DNA from: Microbacterium sp. MYb66
GTDB taxonomy: Bacteria > Actinomycetota > Actinomycetes > Actinomycetales > Microbacteriaceae
Assembly: GCF_002979435.1 (NCBI RefSeq)
Contig: NZ_PCOV01000008.1
Location: forward strand, 62,001 to 126,000
Direction of reading: 5' to 3'
DNA: 64,000 nucleotides
How positions within the stretch are numbered: the stretch's first letter is position 1; each line of letters begins with the position of its first letter. The translations under genes were made by a program, and so were the position numbers. Below the pieces are notes generated by a model, which was given only the letters and a program-made list of their open reading frames with translations, had not been told where the DNA came from and searched no databases. Of this stretch, positions 13,710-18,933 are shown in pieces.

Positions 13710-14186
13710 ATGATCCGCACGACCGTACCGACCTCTGTCCGCAAGGGATCCGCCCTCCTCGGCATCGCGGGGCTGTTCGTCCTCGCGGGGTGCTCCGGCG
13801 CCACCGATGCCGCTGACACCTCGTCCGACGGCGGCAGCACGCCGGACGCCGGCTCGTCTTCGGAGTCGTCCGGCGGCGACGCCACTGCGACCTACGCCGA
13901 CGGCTCCTACACCGCCGACGGTTCCTACCAGACCCCGGAGACGGTCGAGAAGATCTCCGTCACCCTGACCCTCGCCGACGGTGTCGTGACCGACGTGGAG
14001 GTCACAGGAGACCCGCAGGCTCCCGAGACGGAGCAGTACCAGGGCCAGTTCATCGCCGGGATCGCCGACGAGGTCGAGGGCAAGTCGATCGACGAGCTGA
14101 ACGTCAGCCGGGTCGCCGGCTCCTCGCTCACCAGCGGCGGCTTCAACGCGGCGGTCGAGTCGATCAAGGAACAGGCCGCCGCCTAG
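13710..14186 (+). CDS. FMN-binding domain lipoprotein
   Basis: 158 residues. A signal peptide with lipobox LAGC (Cys28) is followed by a Ser/Gly/Asp linker to about 65 and a single FMN_bind domain (DGSYTADGSY to the end). The C-terminal S-S-L-T-S-G-G segment (residues 138-144) sits where FMN_bind proteins have the Ser/Thr that receives covalent FMN through a phosphoester bond. The next gene encodes ApbE, the enzyme that makes that bond. Inference: an outward-facing, membrane-anchored flavoprotein electron carrier. The start at 13710 follows GGGAGGACC; an in-frame ATG at 13665 would bury the signal peptide. Confidence 0.9.
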   Translation: MIRTTVPTSVRKGSALLGIAGLFVLAGCSGATDAADTSSDGGSTPDAGSSSESSGGDATATYADGSYTADGSYQTPETVEKISVTLTLADGVVTDVEVTGDPQAPETEQYQGQFIAGIADEVEGKSIDELNVSRVAGSSLTSGGFNAAVESIKEQAAA

Positions 14187-14200
14187 GCGCCGGAAGCCGT

Positions 14201-15082
14201 ATGGCGATCTGGCGCTTCGAGGCGATCGGAACGCACTGGGAGGTCGAGACGACCGACCCGCTCGGCGATGCCGTCCGCGCCGAAGTGGCCGCCGAGGTCG
14301 AGCGGTTCGACCGCGAGTGGTCGCGGTTCCGCCAGGATTCCGACGTCACCCGGCTCGGCAGGGAGGGCGGTGACCTCGTTTCGACCGATGCCGGCGTGAT
14401 GCTCGATGCGTATCGCGCGCTCTCCGCGGCGACGGCCGGCGCGGTGAACCCTCTGGTGGCCGACAGCCTCAGCGCGCTCGGCTACGACGCCGACTACACG
14501 CTCGTCGCCGGAGACCCGGTTCGCGCCCCGGCGGCCTGGGAGGAGCAGCTGTCCTGGACCGCGACGCAGGTGGCGGCATCCGAGCCTGCGCTCCTCGACG
14601 TCGGCGCGGTCGGCAAAGGGCGTCTGGTCGACCTCGTGTCCGACGTGCTGGCTTCGATCCCCGGAGACGTCGTGATCGATGCGGGCGGTGACATGCGGGT
14701 GCGGGGCGAGGCCGTGCGCGTCGGTCTCGAGCATCCGTACGACCCGCAGAAGGCCATCGGTGTGGTCGAGCTCCAGGACCGGGCGCTGTGCGCCTCGGCG
14801 GTCAACCGTCGATCGTGGGGGAGCGGTCTGCATCATGTGCTCGACGCCCGCACCGGGCTCCCCGTGCGCACGTGGGCGGCGACCTGGGCGCTCGCTCCGG
14901 ACGCGATGACGGCGGATGCCCTCGCGTCGGCGCTCTTCTTCGACGGCGGGCCCGCGCTGGCAGAGACCTGGGGTGCGGAGTGGGTCCGCATGAGCACCGA
15001 CGGACGGGTGCAGCGTTCGCCCGGGTGTCCCGCAGAGCTCTTCCTGGGCGGGAGAGCAGCACCCCCGGGATCCGGGAATTAG
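14201..15082 (+). CDS. apbE: FAD:protein FMN transferase (ApbE)
   Basis: 293 residues. ApbE landmarks are FRQDSDVTRL, DVGAVGKGRLVD, the flavin site VIDAGGDMRVRG, and the metal/catalytic motif RTWAATWALAPDAMTADAL. It transfers FMN from FAD to a Thr/Ser of FMN_bind-type proteins; the adjacent lipoprotein is the obvious substrate. I see no signal peptide, so flavinylation would occur in the cytoplasm unless export uses another route. The ATG has GGAAG about 5 bases upstream. It lies 14 bases after the lipoprotein gene and 6 before the next gene, an operon. Confidence 0.93.
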   Translation: MAIWRFEAIGTHWEVETTDPLGDAVRAEVAAEVERFDREWSRFRQDSDVTRLGREGGDLVSTDAGVMLDAYRALSAATAGAVNPLVADSLSALGYDADYTLVAGDPVRAPAAWEEQLSWTATQVAASEPALLDVGAVGKGRLVDLVSDVLASIPGDVVIDAGGDMRVRGEAVRVGLEHPYDPQKAIGVVELQDRALCASAVNRRSWGSGLHHVLDARTGLPVRTWAATWALAPDAMTADALASALFFDGGPALAETWGAEWVRMSTDGRVQRSPGCPAELFLGGRAAPPGSGN

Positions 15083-15088
15083 GGAAGA

Positions 15089-16672
15089 GTGGAGAACGTG
15101 ATCACCTCATTCGCCGCCGCACGTCAGCGGGTCCTCGCGGTGCTGGGCTCCCTGTCGATGTACCGCCTCGTGCTCTTCGCGCTCATCGCCCTCGCCGTCA
15201 TCGCGTTCGTGTTGTCGCTCGCCGGAGTGATCGTCTCGCCGACACCGGTGGAACTCGTGGCATCCTTCCTCGTGCTGGCCGCCGTCATCTCGGTCGTCGA
15301 CGCCGTCGCGCAGCGCATCCTGAGGCTGCCGTGGCGCATCGAGTCGTCTCTGGTCACGGCCCTGATCCTGCTGTTCGTGCTTCGCCCCGGCCTCGAGCCG
15401 TCCGCCCTGTTCGGCCTCGCGATCGCGGGGGCCGTCGCCAGCGTGTCGAAGTATCTGATCGCATGGCGCGGACGCCATATCTTCAACCCGGCCGCCTTCG
15501 GCGCGGCCGTCGTGTCGATCCTCGGCGCGTTCGGGGCGTTCGACTGGTTGGGCACCTCGTCCTCGTGGTGGGTCGGCACACCGGTTCTGACGATCCCCGT
15601 CGCGGTCCTCGGTCTCGCGGTGCTGTGGCGCACCGAGAAGGTGCGCGTGGTGCTGGTGTTCCTGCTCGTCGCCGTCGTCACCTCGGTGGTACGACAGGCG
15701 GTGCAGGCCGCGCAGTTCGACATCGGCTTCGATGCGCTCACGGCCCTGCAGTTCGCGCTGCTGCAGTCGCCGTTCCTGTTCCTCGGAGCGTTCATGCTCT
15801 CCGAACCCCTCACACTCCCGCCGCGTCGTCGGCAGCAGTTCGCCGTGGCCGCCGTGGTCGGAATCCTCGCCGGGTGGCCGATCTCCGTGGCCGGACTGTT
15901 CACGCTCGGCCAGGAGCGCGCTCTGCTGATCGGCAACCTGGTGGCGTTCGCCTTCGCCCTCCGCGGATCGGTGCGACTCGTGCTCGAGCGGCGCGAGTTC
16001 GTCACGCCGACCGCTCAAGAACTCACCTTCCGGGCCAGGGGGCGGGTCCGCTTCCTTCCGGGGCAGTATCTGGAGCTCGACGTCCCGCACCACCGGCCGG
16101 ATGCACGCGGAACGCGCCGCGAGTTCAGCATCGTGTCGGCGCCGGCCGATCTGCCGACGCTGCGCATCGCCTACAAGAACGGCGACCAGAAGCACCCCTC
16201 GAGCTACAAGCGCGCATTGGCCGCGGCCGAGCCCGGCGCGACGTTCGCCGTGACCGGCACCTGGGGGGACTTCATCCTGCCGCGGGGCGACCACCCGGTG
16301 CTGATGGTGGCCGCGGGTATCGGCGTCACCCCGTTCGTGTCCCAGCTGCGTCAGCTGCAGGCCACGGGGCAGCACCGTGACGTGGTGCTCGTGTACGTGG
16401 CCGCCGAGGCTGCTGAGCTGGCATTCCGCGAGGAGCTCGCCGCGACCGGCGTGCGCACCGTCGTGTTCACCCGGGACGAGCCCGTCGACCTGCCCGCGCA
16501 CTGGACCTGGGCCCGGGGCGCGCGGCTGGATGCGGAGAGCCTCGAGCGGGCCGTCGCCGACCTCGGCACGCGGCACGCCTTCATCTCGGGGCCGCCGCGG
16601 CTGATCGCCGACCTCGCTCCCGCGCTGCAGAAGGCGCGCAGCCTCACCACCGACGCCTTCGCGGGGTACTGA
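15089..16672 (+). CDS. fusion of NqrB/RnfD-like membrane domain and FAD/NAD(P)H ferredoxin-reductase domain
   Basis: 527 residues. The first 290 or so are a hydrophobic, multi-spanning region with NqrB/RnfD-type motifs: RGRHIFNPAAFGAA (about 125-140) and FMLSEPLTLPP (about 235-245). I see no S-G-A-T flavinylation motif in it. The C-terminal 210 residues are a ferredoxin-NADP reductase-like module: FAD-binding RREFSIVSAP, phosphate loop GTWGDFILP, and NAD-binding VAAGIGVTPFVSQL. Inference: it takes electrons from cytosolic NAD(P)H across the membrane to the FMN lipoprotein encoded two genes upstream. The GTG at 15089 follows AGGGAAGA. It is convergent with the sensor kinase gene, 6 bases apart. 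Confidence 0.88.
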   Translation: MENVITSFAAARQRVLAVLGSLSMYRLVLFALIALAVIAFVLSLAGVIVSPTPVELVASFLVLAAVISVVDAVAQRILRLPWRIESSLVTALILLFVLRPGLEPSALFGLAIAGAVASVSKYLIAWRGRHIFNPAAFGAAVVSILGAFGAFDWLGTSSSWWVGTPVLTIPVAVLGLAVLWRTEKVRVVLVFLLVAVVTSVVRQAVQAAQFDIGFDALTALQFALLQSPFLFLGAFMLSEPLTLPPRRRQQFAVAAVVGILAGWPISVAGLFTLGQERALLIGNLVAFAFALRGSVRLVLERREFVTPTAQELTFRARGRVRFLPGQYLELDVPHHRPDARGTRREFSIVSAPADLPTLRIAYKNGDQKHPSSYKRALAAAEPGATFAVTGTWGDFILPRGDHPVLMVAAGIGVTPFVSQLRQLQATGQHRDVVLVYVAAEAAELAFREELAATGVRTVVFTRDEPVDLPAHWTWARGARLDAESLERAVADLGTRHAFISGPPRLIADLAPALQKARSLTTDAFAGY

Positions 16673-16678
16673 CGCCGA

Positions 16679-18208
16679 TCACGCCGCGGATGCGACGGCT
16701 CCGCCGGGCTGCGGGGTGATCGGGAGGCGCACGGTGAAGGTCGTGTCGCCGGGCTCGCTGTCGACGCTGAGCACGCCGTGGTGCCCCTCGACGATGGCTT
16801 TCGCGATCGCGAGACCCAGACCCGTTCCGCCGGTCTGGCGGGCTCGCGAGCTGTCGCCGCGGGCGAACCGGGCGAAGAGCTCCTCGCGGACGGCGGGGTC
16901 GATGCCGGGGCCGTCGTCGTGCACGCGCAGCACCGCGTCGTCAGCCTCGCGCGCGACGCTGAGCGTGATGGTCGTCCCCGCGGGCGTGTGGGTGCGGGCG
17001 TTCGCGAGCAGGTTCGCGACGACCTGGTGCATCCGACCGGCGTCTCCGACGATGGTCACGGGTTCATCGGGGACCTCGATGTTCCAGTGATGGTCGGCTG
17101 CTGTCGGGCGCGCATCCGAGAGGCCCTCGAGCGCCAGCTGCGCGAGGTCGACCGTGCCGTAGACGAGCTCCTGACCCTCATCGAGCCGGGCGAGCAGCAG
17201 CAGATCCTCGACGAGCCGGGTCATCCGCAGGGACTGCGCCTGGATGCGCTCGAGCGACGTCGTGGTGCTCTCGACGACCTCTGGGCCCTGCACGCCGGAC
17301 GGCGCCTGCCGCAGCGCGCGCAGCGACAGCTCCGAGTACCCGCGGATCGAGGCCAGCGGAGTGCGCAGCTCGTGGCTCGCATCGGCGACGAAGCGGCGCA
17401 TGCGCTCCTCGTTCTTCTGACGCGATGCGAGGGCGGTGTTCACGTGGTCCAGCAGCTTGTTCAGGGAAGCGCCCACGAGACCGGTCTCGGTGCGGGGGTC
17501 GGCTTCGGATGCCGGTACGCGCTCGGTGATGCTCACCTCGCCGCGGTCGAGCTGTTGGTTCGCGACCCTGGTCGCGGTGGTGGCGACCGCACGCAGCGGG
17601 CGCAGGCTCACCCGGATGGTGATCGCCGTCGTCAGGGCGAGCAGGATGAGTCCGCCGATCGTCGCGAGGGCGATCACGGTGAGCAGCTGCGTGAGCTGGT
17701 TCTGGATCTCGTCACGGGGAAGACCGGTGACCACGACGACGCCGTCGTTCGTCGGCAGGGCCATGACCCGATACGAACCGAGGTCGGTGATGGAGACCGT
17801 GGCGACCGACGTGCCGTTCAGCGCTCCGGCGATCTCGGCCAGCTGCGCGCCGCTGAGCGTCTCGAGCGATCCGGTGAGCTCGTCTCCGGAAGTGCTCTTC
17901 GCGACGACCCCGCTGAAGCCGGTCACCGGGCTGGAGACGACGAAGAGCACTCCCACCGGAGGTGCAGGACTGCTCGCGAGCACGTTCTGCGCGGTGGCGG
18001 ACGACGGGGGGAAGGCTTCGGTCAGCCGGACGAGCTGGTGGGCGTTGTTGGCCAGCTTCTGGTCGAGCTGGTCCTCCATCGTCTTGCCCAGCGTCGCACT
18101 GGTGATGACGGCGACGATGATGAGGATCAGGGACACGAACCCGATCACGGCGGTCATCAGCCGTGTCTGCAGGCTCATCGGCCGTCTCATCATCGTCGCA
18201 GAGCTCAC
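16679..18208 (-). CDS. two-component sensor histidine kinase
   Basis: 509 residues. There is an N-terminal membrane segment (about 15-40), an extracytoplasmic sensor of about 140 residues, a second membrane segment (about 185-205) and a HAMP region. The HisKA domain has FVADASHELRTPLASIRGY with phospho-accepting His279. The ATPase domain has an N-box HQVVANLLANARTH, DDGPGIDP and GGTGLGLAIAKA. The layout resembles OmpR-class kinases such as MtrB/TcrY-type. Its GTG overlaps the regulator stop by 4 bases (GTGA). The signal sensed is unknown. Confidence 0.94.
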   Translation of the reverse strand: MSSATMMRRPMSLQTRLMTAVIGFVSLILIIVAVITSATLGKTMEDQLDQKLANNAHQLVRLTEAFPPSSATAQNVLASSPAPPVGVLFVVSSPVTGFSGVVAKSTSGDELTGSLETLSGAQLAEIAGALNGTSVATVSITDLGSYRVMALPTNDGVVVVTGLPRDEIQNQLTQLLTVIALATIGGLILLALTTAITIRVSLRPLRAVATTATRVANQQLDRGEVSITERVPASEADPRTETGLVGASLNKLLDHVNTALASRQKNEERMRRFVADASHELRTPLASIRGYSELSLRALRQAPSGVQGPEVVESTTTSLERIQAQSLRMTRLVEDLLLLARLDEGQELVYGTVDLAQLALEGLSDARPTAADHHWNIEVPDEPVTIVGDAGRMHQVVANLLANARTHTPAGTTITLSVAREADDAVLRVHDDGPGIDPAVREELFARFARGDSSRARQTGGTGLGLAIAKAIVEGHHGVLSVDSEPGDTTFTVRLPITPQPGGAVASAA

Positions 18209-18933
18209 TGCGGGGCCTTGATCATGTAGCCGACGCCGCGGACGGTGTGCAGCAGAGGCGTGCGGCCCGCGTCGATCTTCTTGCGCAGGTACGAGATGTA
18301 GAGCTCGACCACCGACGACTTGCCGCCGAAGTCATAGCTCCAGACGCGGTCGAGGATCTGGGCCTTCGACAGCACCCGACGCTCGTTGCGCATGAGGTAG
18401 CGCAGCAGCTCGAACTCCGTCGCGGTGAGCTCGATCTCGGTGCCGTCGCGGACCACCTCGTGGCTGTCCTCGTTGAGCGTGAGGTCGGCGACGCGCAGGA
18501 TCGACTGCCCGTCGTCGGCGGTCGCGTGGCCGGTGCGGCGGATGATCGCGCGCAGCCGTGCGATCACCTCCTCCAGGCTGAACGGCTTCGTGACGTAGTC
18601 GTCACCGCCGGCGGTCAGGCCCGCCACCCGGTCGCCCACGGCGTCCTTGGCGGTGAGGAAGAGCACCGGCACCAGGTTGCCGGACTCCCGGAGCCGCTTG
18701 AGCACCGACATCCCGTCGAGATCGGGCATCATGATGTCGAGCACCAGGGCGTCCGGCTCGAACTCGCGGGCGACCTGGAGGGCCTCCATTCCGGAGGACG
18801 CGGTGCGCACCTCCCAGCCTTCCATCCGCAGGGCCATGGCGAGCAGGTCGGTGAGCATCTGCTCGTCGTCGACGGCGAGGATGCGCAGGGGGGAGCCGTC
18901 GGGGCGGCGCAGTTCGGGCAGGTCGCTGGTCAT
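18205..18933 (-). CDS. OmpR-family response regulator
   Basis: 242 residues. The receiver domain has acidic pocket VDDE (21-24), phospho-acceptor D66 in LVLDIMMPD, and the FLTAKD Thr/Lys pair. The OmpR/PhoB winged helix follows, with LTATEFELLRYLMRNERRVLSKAQILDRVW and a C-terminal VRGVGYMIK. It is transcribed first, with the kinase overlapping its stop, so the pair is one operon. It resembles TcrA/PrrA-like actinobacterial regulators, but the regulon cannot be inferred. Confidence 0.95.
   Translation of the reverse strand: MTSDLPELRRPDGSPLRILAVDDEQMLTDLLAMALRMEGWEVRTASSGMEALQVAREFEPDALVLDIMMPDLDGMSVLKRLRESGNLVPVLFLTAKDAVGDRVAGLTAGGDDYVTKPFSLEEVIARLRAIIRRTGHATADDGQSILRVADLTLNEDSHEVVRDGTEIELTATEFELLRYLMRNERRVLSKAQILDRVWSYDFGGKSSVVELYISYLRKKIDAGRTPLLHTVRGVGYMIKAPQ

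Follow-up and report, generated by a model that had tools for sequence, protein, structure and literature searches.

Introduction

Flavin-based electron-transfer modules related to the Na+-NQR and RNF complexes have been reported as NQR/RNF-like systems, in which, according to the passages devoted to them in two papers (PMC8238504, PMC10979944), an NqrB/RnfD domain and a C-terminal NAD-binding domain are united in one protein that is accompanied by an FMN_bind partner and by ApbE, and in which the flavinylation site of NqrB/RnfD is not conserved. The 2021 report found the type mainly in Actinobacteria and the candidate phyla radiation and proposed that in it NAD(P)H electrons reach the FMN_bind protein by one-way transfer (PMC8238504), and the corresponding section of the 2024 report gives the same model (PMC10979944). 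Here we analyse a locus of three genes, called the triplet below, within 64,000 nucleotides of Microbacterium sp. MYb66 (contig NZ_PCOV01000008.1, positions 62,001 to 126,000; this whole stretch is the window). The genes encode an FMN_bind lipoprotein, an ApbE (flavin adenine dinucleotide (FAD):protein flavin mononucleotide (FMN) transferase) and an NqrB/RnfD-ferredoxin-reductase fusion.

The FmnB/PplA system of Listeria, which has a different membrane donor, resembles the triplet in placing a flavinylated lipoprotein on a Gram-positive surface. It differs in that FmnB is described as working outside the cytosol and as depending on exported FAD; this requirement was derived from the location of ApbE outside the cell, as far as the relevant passages of that report go (PMC9973259). 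ApbE proteins are described as mostly secreted and the characterised ones as mostly lipoproteins, cytosolic ones being known for soluble fumarate reductase (PMC12052999, in its passages on ApbE).

The fusion protein and its cofactors

Our analysis places the triplet in the published class of NQR/RNF-like systems, hence the fusion is not new, and extends that class to Microbacterium. With a probability of about 0.8 the three genes form a minimal Nqr/Rnf-like transmembrane electron-transfer module. A preliminary description of the locus had claimed a three-gene module with this domain anatomy; the reading frames were confirmed in place and strand, with Pfam support for FMN_bind, ApbE and NAD_binding_1 (Table 1), and the anatomy stands. 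It did not mention that the type had been described already in 2021 (PMC8238504) and 2024 (PMC10979944), nor did it comment on the missing export signal of ApbE.

Table 1. Position, strand and supporting evidence of the features discussed (window coordinates).
Feature	Position	Strand	Basis or remark
FMN_bind lipoprotein, 158 aa	13710-14186	+	Pfam PF04205, 23.8 bits (cut-off 22)
Predicted flavinylation motif VAGSSLTS, residues 135-142	14112-14135	+	alignment with relatives
Candidate FMN acceptor Ser139	14124-14126	+	alignment with relatives
ApbE (FAD:protein FMN transferase), 293 aa	14201-15082	+	Pfam PF02424, 124.3 bits
NqrB/RnfD-ferredoxin-reductase fusion, 527 aa	15089-16672	+	predicted fold and Pfam PF00175
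Fusion, membrane half, residues 1-292	15089-15964	+	NqrB/RnfD fold, VIA-align of predicted model
Fusion, reductase half, residues 293-527	15965-16672	+	PF00175 (NAD_binding_1) over residues 406-508, 34.9 bits (cut-off 22); without 2Fe-2S domain; presumed cytosolic
Histidine kinase and response regulator	16679-18208 and 18205-18933	minus	convergent with fusion

The fusion was modelled as a whole chain with AlphaFold2 from 36 sequences (mean predicted local distance difference test score, pLDDT, 87.1) and the model was compared with known structures using VIA-align. Residues 23-292 superposed on RnfD (8ahx_D) with a Z-score of 23.3, a root mean square deviation (rmsd) of 2.7 and 239 aligned residues, and residues 19-294 on NqrB (8evu_B) with Z 22.4, rmsd 3.6 and 255 aligned; the further RnfD/NqrB entries 8rbq_D, 9eri_D and 9lrr_B reached Z 22.0-23.3 at rmsd 6.3-6.9. 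The predicted structure settles that the membrane half has the RnfD/NqrB fold, on which the preliminary description had staked its reading. The other half, residues 293-527, matched the flavohaemoprotein-type reductase domain 4eh1_B (Z 25.3) and, as residues 289-527, the FAD domain of NqrF (7qu5; Z 23.4). Foldseek by itself left the membrane half undecided, because its list for the fusion was taken up by the reductase domain. The NCBIfam matches of the fusion start at residue 305 or later.

At the level of sequence the agreement with NqrB/RnfD is weak but consistent. The membrane half is so divergent, in contrast to the published NQR/RNF-like systems, that PF03116 does not appear among the hmmscan results of the fusion up to E 1, although the reverse search of the genome with PF03116 recovered it in two pieces of 22.1 and 12.4 bits (29 together, cut-off 27.7). 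PF03116 was matched in hmmscan by 11 of 39 family members (best 1.9e-10), and a profile built from 39 membrane halves found a single PDB sequence, that of RnfD (E 0.0016), through two stretches each of which is weak by itself. Five members were also scanned with the rnfD, RsxD and NqrB models. Two distant ones, a Mesorhizobium copy (L174) and L106, from a low-GC member of the window's phylum, matched rnfD and RsxD, the latter copy matching NqrB too, and the remaining three (L065, L070, L076) matched none of these models.

The whole fusion contains no cysteine, and His130, invariant in 36 of 36 sequences, is the sole histidine of its membrane half. In transmembrane reductases of the haem type, such as NOX and MsrQ, haem is bound by pairs of membrane histidines. 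An iron-sulphur wire or a bis-histidine haem wire was considered and rejected on these two observations, and because of them the wire through the fusion is probably all flavin. The flavinylation motif [STA]G[AS][ST] is absent from the fusion, and residues 144-219 of RnfD (8ahx_D), which lie between the two stretches aligned with our profile, face only six profile positions; both are consistent with the non-conserved NqrB/RnfD flavinylation site noted for this type in the passages cited above (PMC10979944). The reductase half has invariant R343, R344 and S347, an invariant GIGxTP motif (G410, I411, G412, T414, P415) and a nearly invariant C-terminal Tyr527. From what is known of the family, we take these conserved residues to bind FAD and NAD(P)H.

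The lipoprotein and its flavin acceptor

The lipoprotein has a lipobox cysteine, Cys28, and an FMN_bind domain at about residues 63-158. Using a permissive pattern, and start codons chosen to precede it, a lipobox was seen in 68 of 69 homologues, the exception (L016) having a broken FMN_bind frame; a twin-arginine-like pattern occurs in 4 of the 69. The predicted model (pLDDT 73.5 overall, mostly above 80 in the FMN_bind domain) was closest in VIA-align to domain 2 of SaFMN3 (8p2a; Z 10.2, 87 aligned, 2.2 Å) and less close to NqrC (4xhf_C, Z 8.1) and RnfG (7zc6_G, Z 8.0). Since folds without relation to FMN_bind score up to Z 8.4 in that comparison, 8p2a alone stands clear. Foldseek returned no match for the FMN_bind model at E 0.001, and most of its top rows showed unrelated folds.

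Alignment points to Ser139 as the probable FMN acceptor, because the variant motif VAGSSLT around it lines up with the [ST]GA[ST]-type motifs of relatives, namely VSGATxT or VTGATxT in low-GC loci, [VI]SGATxT in Ferric_reduct modules and VSGASLT in L112. The variant, as V[AS][GS][SA]SLT, is present in all 69 homologues and distinguishes the triplet from the published NQR/RNF-like systems, where the passages on the motif give [ST]GA[ST] as usual. A second candidate, SGAT at residues 29-32, directly adjoins the lipobox cysteine, recurs in only one of the 69 homologues (L008) and was discarded as a chance occurrence.

We infer an electron path that would begin with the reduction of FAD by NAD(P)H in the cytosolic reductase half, continue across the membrane by way of a flavin held non-covalently in the NqrB/RnfD-like half, with neither haem nor iron-sulphur centre involved, and lead to the FMN covalently bound to Ser139 at the surface, from where electrons would pass one-way to an extracytosolic acceptor. 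ApbE would attach the FMN of the lipoprotein, taking it from FAD. That NAD(P)H electrons would arrive at the lipoprotein had been suggested in the preliminary description; the suggestion is a sound one and coincides with the published proposal. The triplet is a small candidate for flavin-only transmembrane electron transfer, and its interest lies in this probable all-flavin wire and in the place where ApbE works.

Comparison with Na+-NQR, RNF and Ferric_reduct modules

With Na+-NQR and RNF the triplet shares the NqrB/RnfD membrane fold, an NqrF-like FAD domain and an NqrC/RnfG-like lipoprotein domain. In contrast to these complexes, the fusion has no 2Fe-2S domain, and the genome yielded no NqrD/E or RnfA/E type of protein (PF02508) over the cut-off of 23.8 bits, the best match reaching 15.1 bits, in a search that did not cover NqrA and RnfB/C. 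As the genome search with PF03116, up to E 10, also showed no second protein of this family, the fusion seems to stand alone as far as these two families go. There is no evident return path, therefore the triplet probably pumps no ions.

The MsrQ-like/Ferric_reduct modules of Actinobacteria (L119-L121, L175) similarly combine FMN_bind, ApbE and one membrane reductase, and their ApbEs are leaderless by eye. Their membrane part belongs to PF01794, whereas that of the triplet has the NqrB/RnfD fold.

Distribution of the triplet

Contigs of related genomes provided 55 loci, 54 titled Microbacterium and one Actinomycetales bacterium SN12. Judged by BLAST matches, FMN_bind, ApbE and fusion lie on one strand and in one order in 52 of them, and one further locus (L035) is cut off by a contig end. 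This recurring order rules out a chance association of the three genes. A search of 198 genomes of the order, which counts the genome of the window and shares species with the first set, found a full-length fusion in 20, among them 7 of the 8 genomes of the same genus; the triplet lies within a 4.5 kb locus in 19 of the 20, and the twentieth (L063) was completed in a wider extract (L123). Across 396 genomes of the phylum the fusion was found at E 1e-50 in 8, one of which (G488) has an internal stop. The survey of homologous triplets proposed in the preliminary description has accordingly shown the order to recur both in these 52 loci and in other actinobacteria; two low-GC loci (L105 and L106) were read from lists of open reading frames.

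Two loci depart from the compact layout. An additional gene of 182 residues, MOSC-like by eye, separates ApbE from the fusion in L123 (6240-6788), and four additional genes separate FMN_bind from ApbE in L104 (G407).

Outside the phylum, a Mesorhizobium plasmid (L174; NZ_CP083955.1, 187087-193791) carries FMN_bind, ApbE and a fusion annotated as RnfD that matches both PF03116 and PF00175. The ApbE of this plasmid shares 55% identity with that of L106, which suggests horizontal transfer. The plasmid triplet is accompanied by genes for a VIT family protein, a cytochrome b and a convergent kinase/regulator pair.

Possible electron acceptors

These surroundings bear on the acceptor. The module could serve reductive iron uptake, with the surface-exposed FMN of the lipoprotein as reductant of ferric iron or a ferric siderophore, as the VIT family protein and the cytochrome b beside the Mesorhizobium copy would suggest; VIT1 is present in six such clusters according to the passage on them in PMC8238504. 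Against this, no iron family was found among the 13 window neighbours tested, an inspection by eye of the genes around the actinobacterial copies, limited to N-termini, recognised none, and VIT also adjoins the Ferric_reduct module of Citricoccus and so is not specific. We regard iron uptake as possible, at somewhat worse than even odds.

Slightly less probable still, and in our view unlikely, is that electrons go to oxygen, peroxide, a quinone or an oxidised envelope protein, with the module acting as a redox safety valve or as a donor for repair. Microbacterium is an aerobic genus, which would suit this function. SaFMN3, a multi-FMN protein that shares its fold with the lipoprotein, is reported to use dioxygen in the part of PMC12052999 concerned with it, and one copy (L115) lies, by eye, upstream of thioredoxin-like and coenzyme A-disulphide-reductase-type genes; this last context is a single locus.

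Points against the module

Several observations weigh against the triplet working as the module outlined above. The flavin site in the membrane half would have to be carried over from NqrB/RnfD and the 2024 model. Two loci, from Microbacterium arabinogalactanolyticum (L037) and Microbacterium sp. 69-10 (L038), have an intact fusion with no adjoining FMN_bind or ApbE match, and their genomes contain a separate FMN_bind/ApbE pair beside a Ferric_reduct protein and response-regulator-like and histidine-kinase-like genes; this suggests that the fusion there may use another FMN_bind protein or have a different role. The reading frame is broken for the fusion in L049, L051 and G488 (L107), and for ApbE in L051, so the fusion may be dispensable or these breaks may be sequencing errors. 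Finally, the ApbE of the triplet has no visible leader, which is at odds with the usual extracytosolic picture.

A leaderless ApbE

The ApbE of the window has relatives of known structure (6nxi_A, E 1.2e-10; 5mgy_H; 1vrm_A). Its frame offers one start codon only, which lies 7 codons ahead of the GT motif; a signal peptide or lipobox was not seen, and by hydropathy no start codon would yield a leader. The same test, which used hydropathy with a threshold of 1.6 and not SignalP, found a hydrophobic leader in none of 70 triplet ApbEs at any start within 70 codons (in 13 of the 70 the furthest start lies more than 25 codons upstream, in some beyond 70). In 31 of the 70 an in-frame stop stands at most 25 codons before the GT motif. 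The 70 come from overlapping sets and include the window copy (L058); the cut locus L035 as well as L049 and L051 were left out. That ApbE is without a visible signal peptide sets the triplet apart from the published NQR/RNF-like systems, where the passages available on them do not remark on the point.

ApbE is present in 168 of 296 genomes of the class, and 50 of these loci (L124-L173) were sampled. Among the 30 best-scoring, two were weakly flagged (L127, 1.63; L152, 1.71) and show no signal peptide by eye; among 20 further hand-picked loci none of the 19 scored was flagged. The locus not counted (L163) was dropped when its motif was not found, and by eye its protein starts just upstream of WSTTARV. 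In the sampled proteins a possible start lies from a few to about 30 residues before an MGT-like motif, with no evident leader.

As controls served 12 plasmid-borne ApbEs, from 25 listed of 300 records. By eye, three have a leader (Paracoccus seriniphilus, Azospirillum, Enterococcus) and nine do not (Mesorhizobium, Citricoccus, Lactiplantibacillus, Shinella, Pseudosulfitobacter, Paracoccus aerodenitrificans, S. epidermidis and two from Pantoea). Eight of these nine come from outside the class, so a leaderless ApbE is not peculiar to it. The threshold is a loose one, for hydropathy over the first 45 residues also exceeds 1.6 in the Lactiplantibacillus (1.63) and both Pantoea (1.84) proteins. 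The two Pantoea genes adjoin a flavocytochrome c.

Either FMN is attached to the lipoprotein before export or ApbE reaches the outside in a way not yet recognised; at moderate odds we favour the first. We tentatively propose, at a little under even chances, that a cytosolic ApbE attaches FMN near the C-terminus of the unfolded lipoprotein precursor, which then passes through Sec. ApbE would draw on the plentiful cytosolic FAD, and the flavin-bearing chain would have to traverse the Sec channel. The literature, covered by titles, abstracts and passages with supplementary files outside the scope, yielded no account of a leaderless ApbE that serves exported proteins.

Export of ApbE by an unrecognised route, with flavinylation outside as in Listeria, appears improbable to us. 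It would agree with the lipoprotein signal of the substrate and with the passages that describe most characterised ApbEs as lipoproteins (PMC12052999), but it is opposed by the missing leaders and nearby upstream stops reported above, and by the FAD-exporter marker used in the relevant part of PMC9973259, PF07456, which was found in none of 11 module genomes (mainly a Firmicutes family; other FAD exporters were not sought).

If FMN is indeed attached before export, the need for an FAD exporter is removed, and the same may hold for Actinomycetes generally and beyond, given that leaders are likewise missing from the ApbEs sampled in the class and from several outside it. The premise of an ApbE outside the cell, from which FAD export was derived in the passages on Listeria (PMC9973259), seems not to hold here. 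The leaderless ApbE makes it testable whether surface proteins can receive their covalent flavin ahead of Sec export, a question that was not met with in the literature covered.

Genomic context and gene starts

The neighbouring two-component system is quite improbable as a part of the module controlling the triplet. In favour of such a link, its kinase is convergent and at most 1.7 kb away in 54 of the 55 loci, and in Mesorhizobium (annotated) and L105 (by eye) the fusion is likewise followed by genes for a kinase and a regulator. Against it, the regulator has a match of 70 to 81% identity in each of the 7 genomes without a full-length fusion that were searched in the genus and family, its best match is located away from the module in 7 of 7 genomes that carry the module in other families of the class, and the neighbouring phosphoribosyl pyrophosphate (PRPP) synthetase gene is equally conserved in Microbacterium.

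That synthetase gene precedes the triplet, whose genes all lie on the plus strand. The intergenic gaps are 14 bases between lipoprotein and ApbE and 6 bases between ApbE and fusion, which suggests a single transcript. FMN_bind and ApbE each have one match in the genome at E up to 0.001. The lipoprotein is read from the ATG at 13710, a longer frame from 13665 being possible. For the fusion, a GTG at 15098, three codons downstream of the start in Table 1, is common to relatives and may be the true start.

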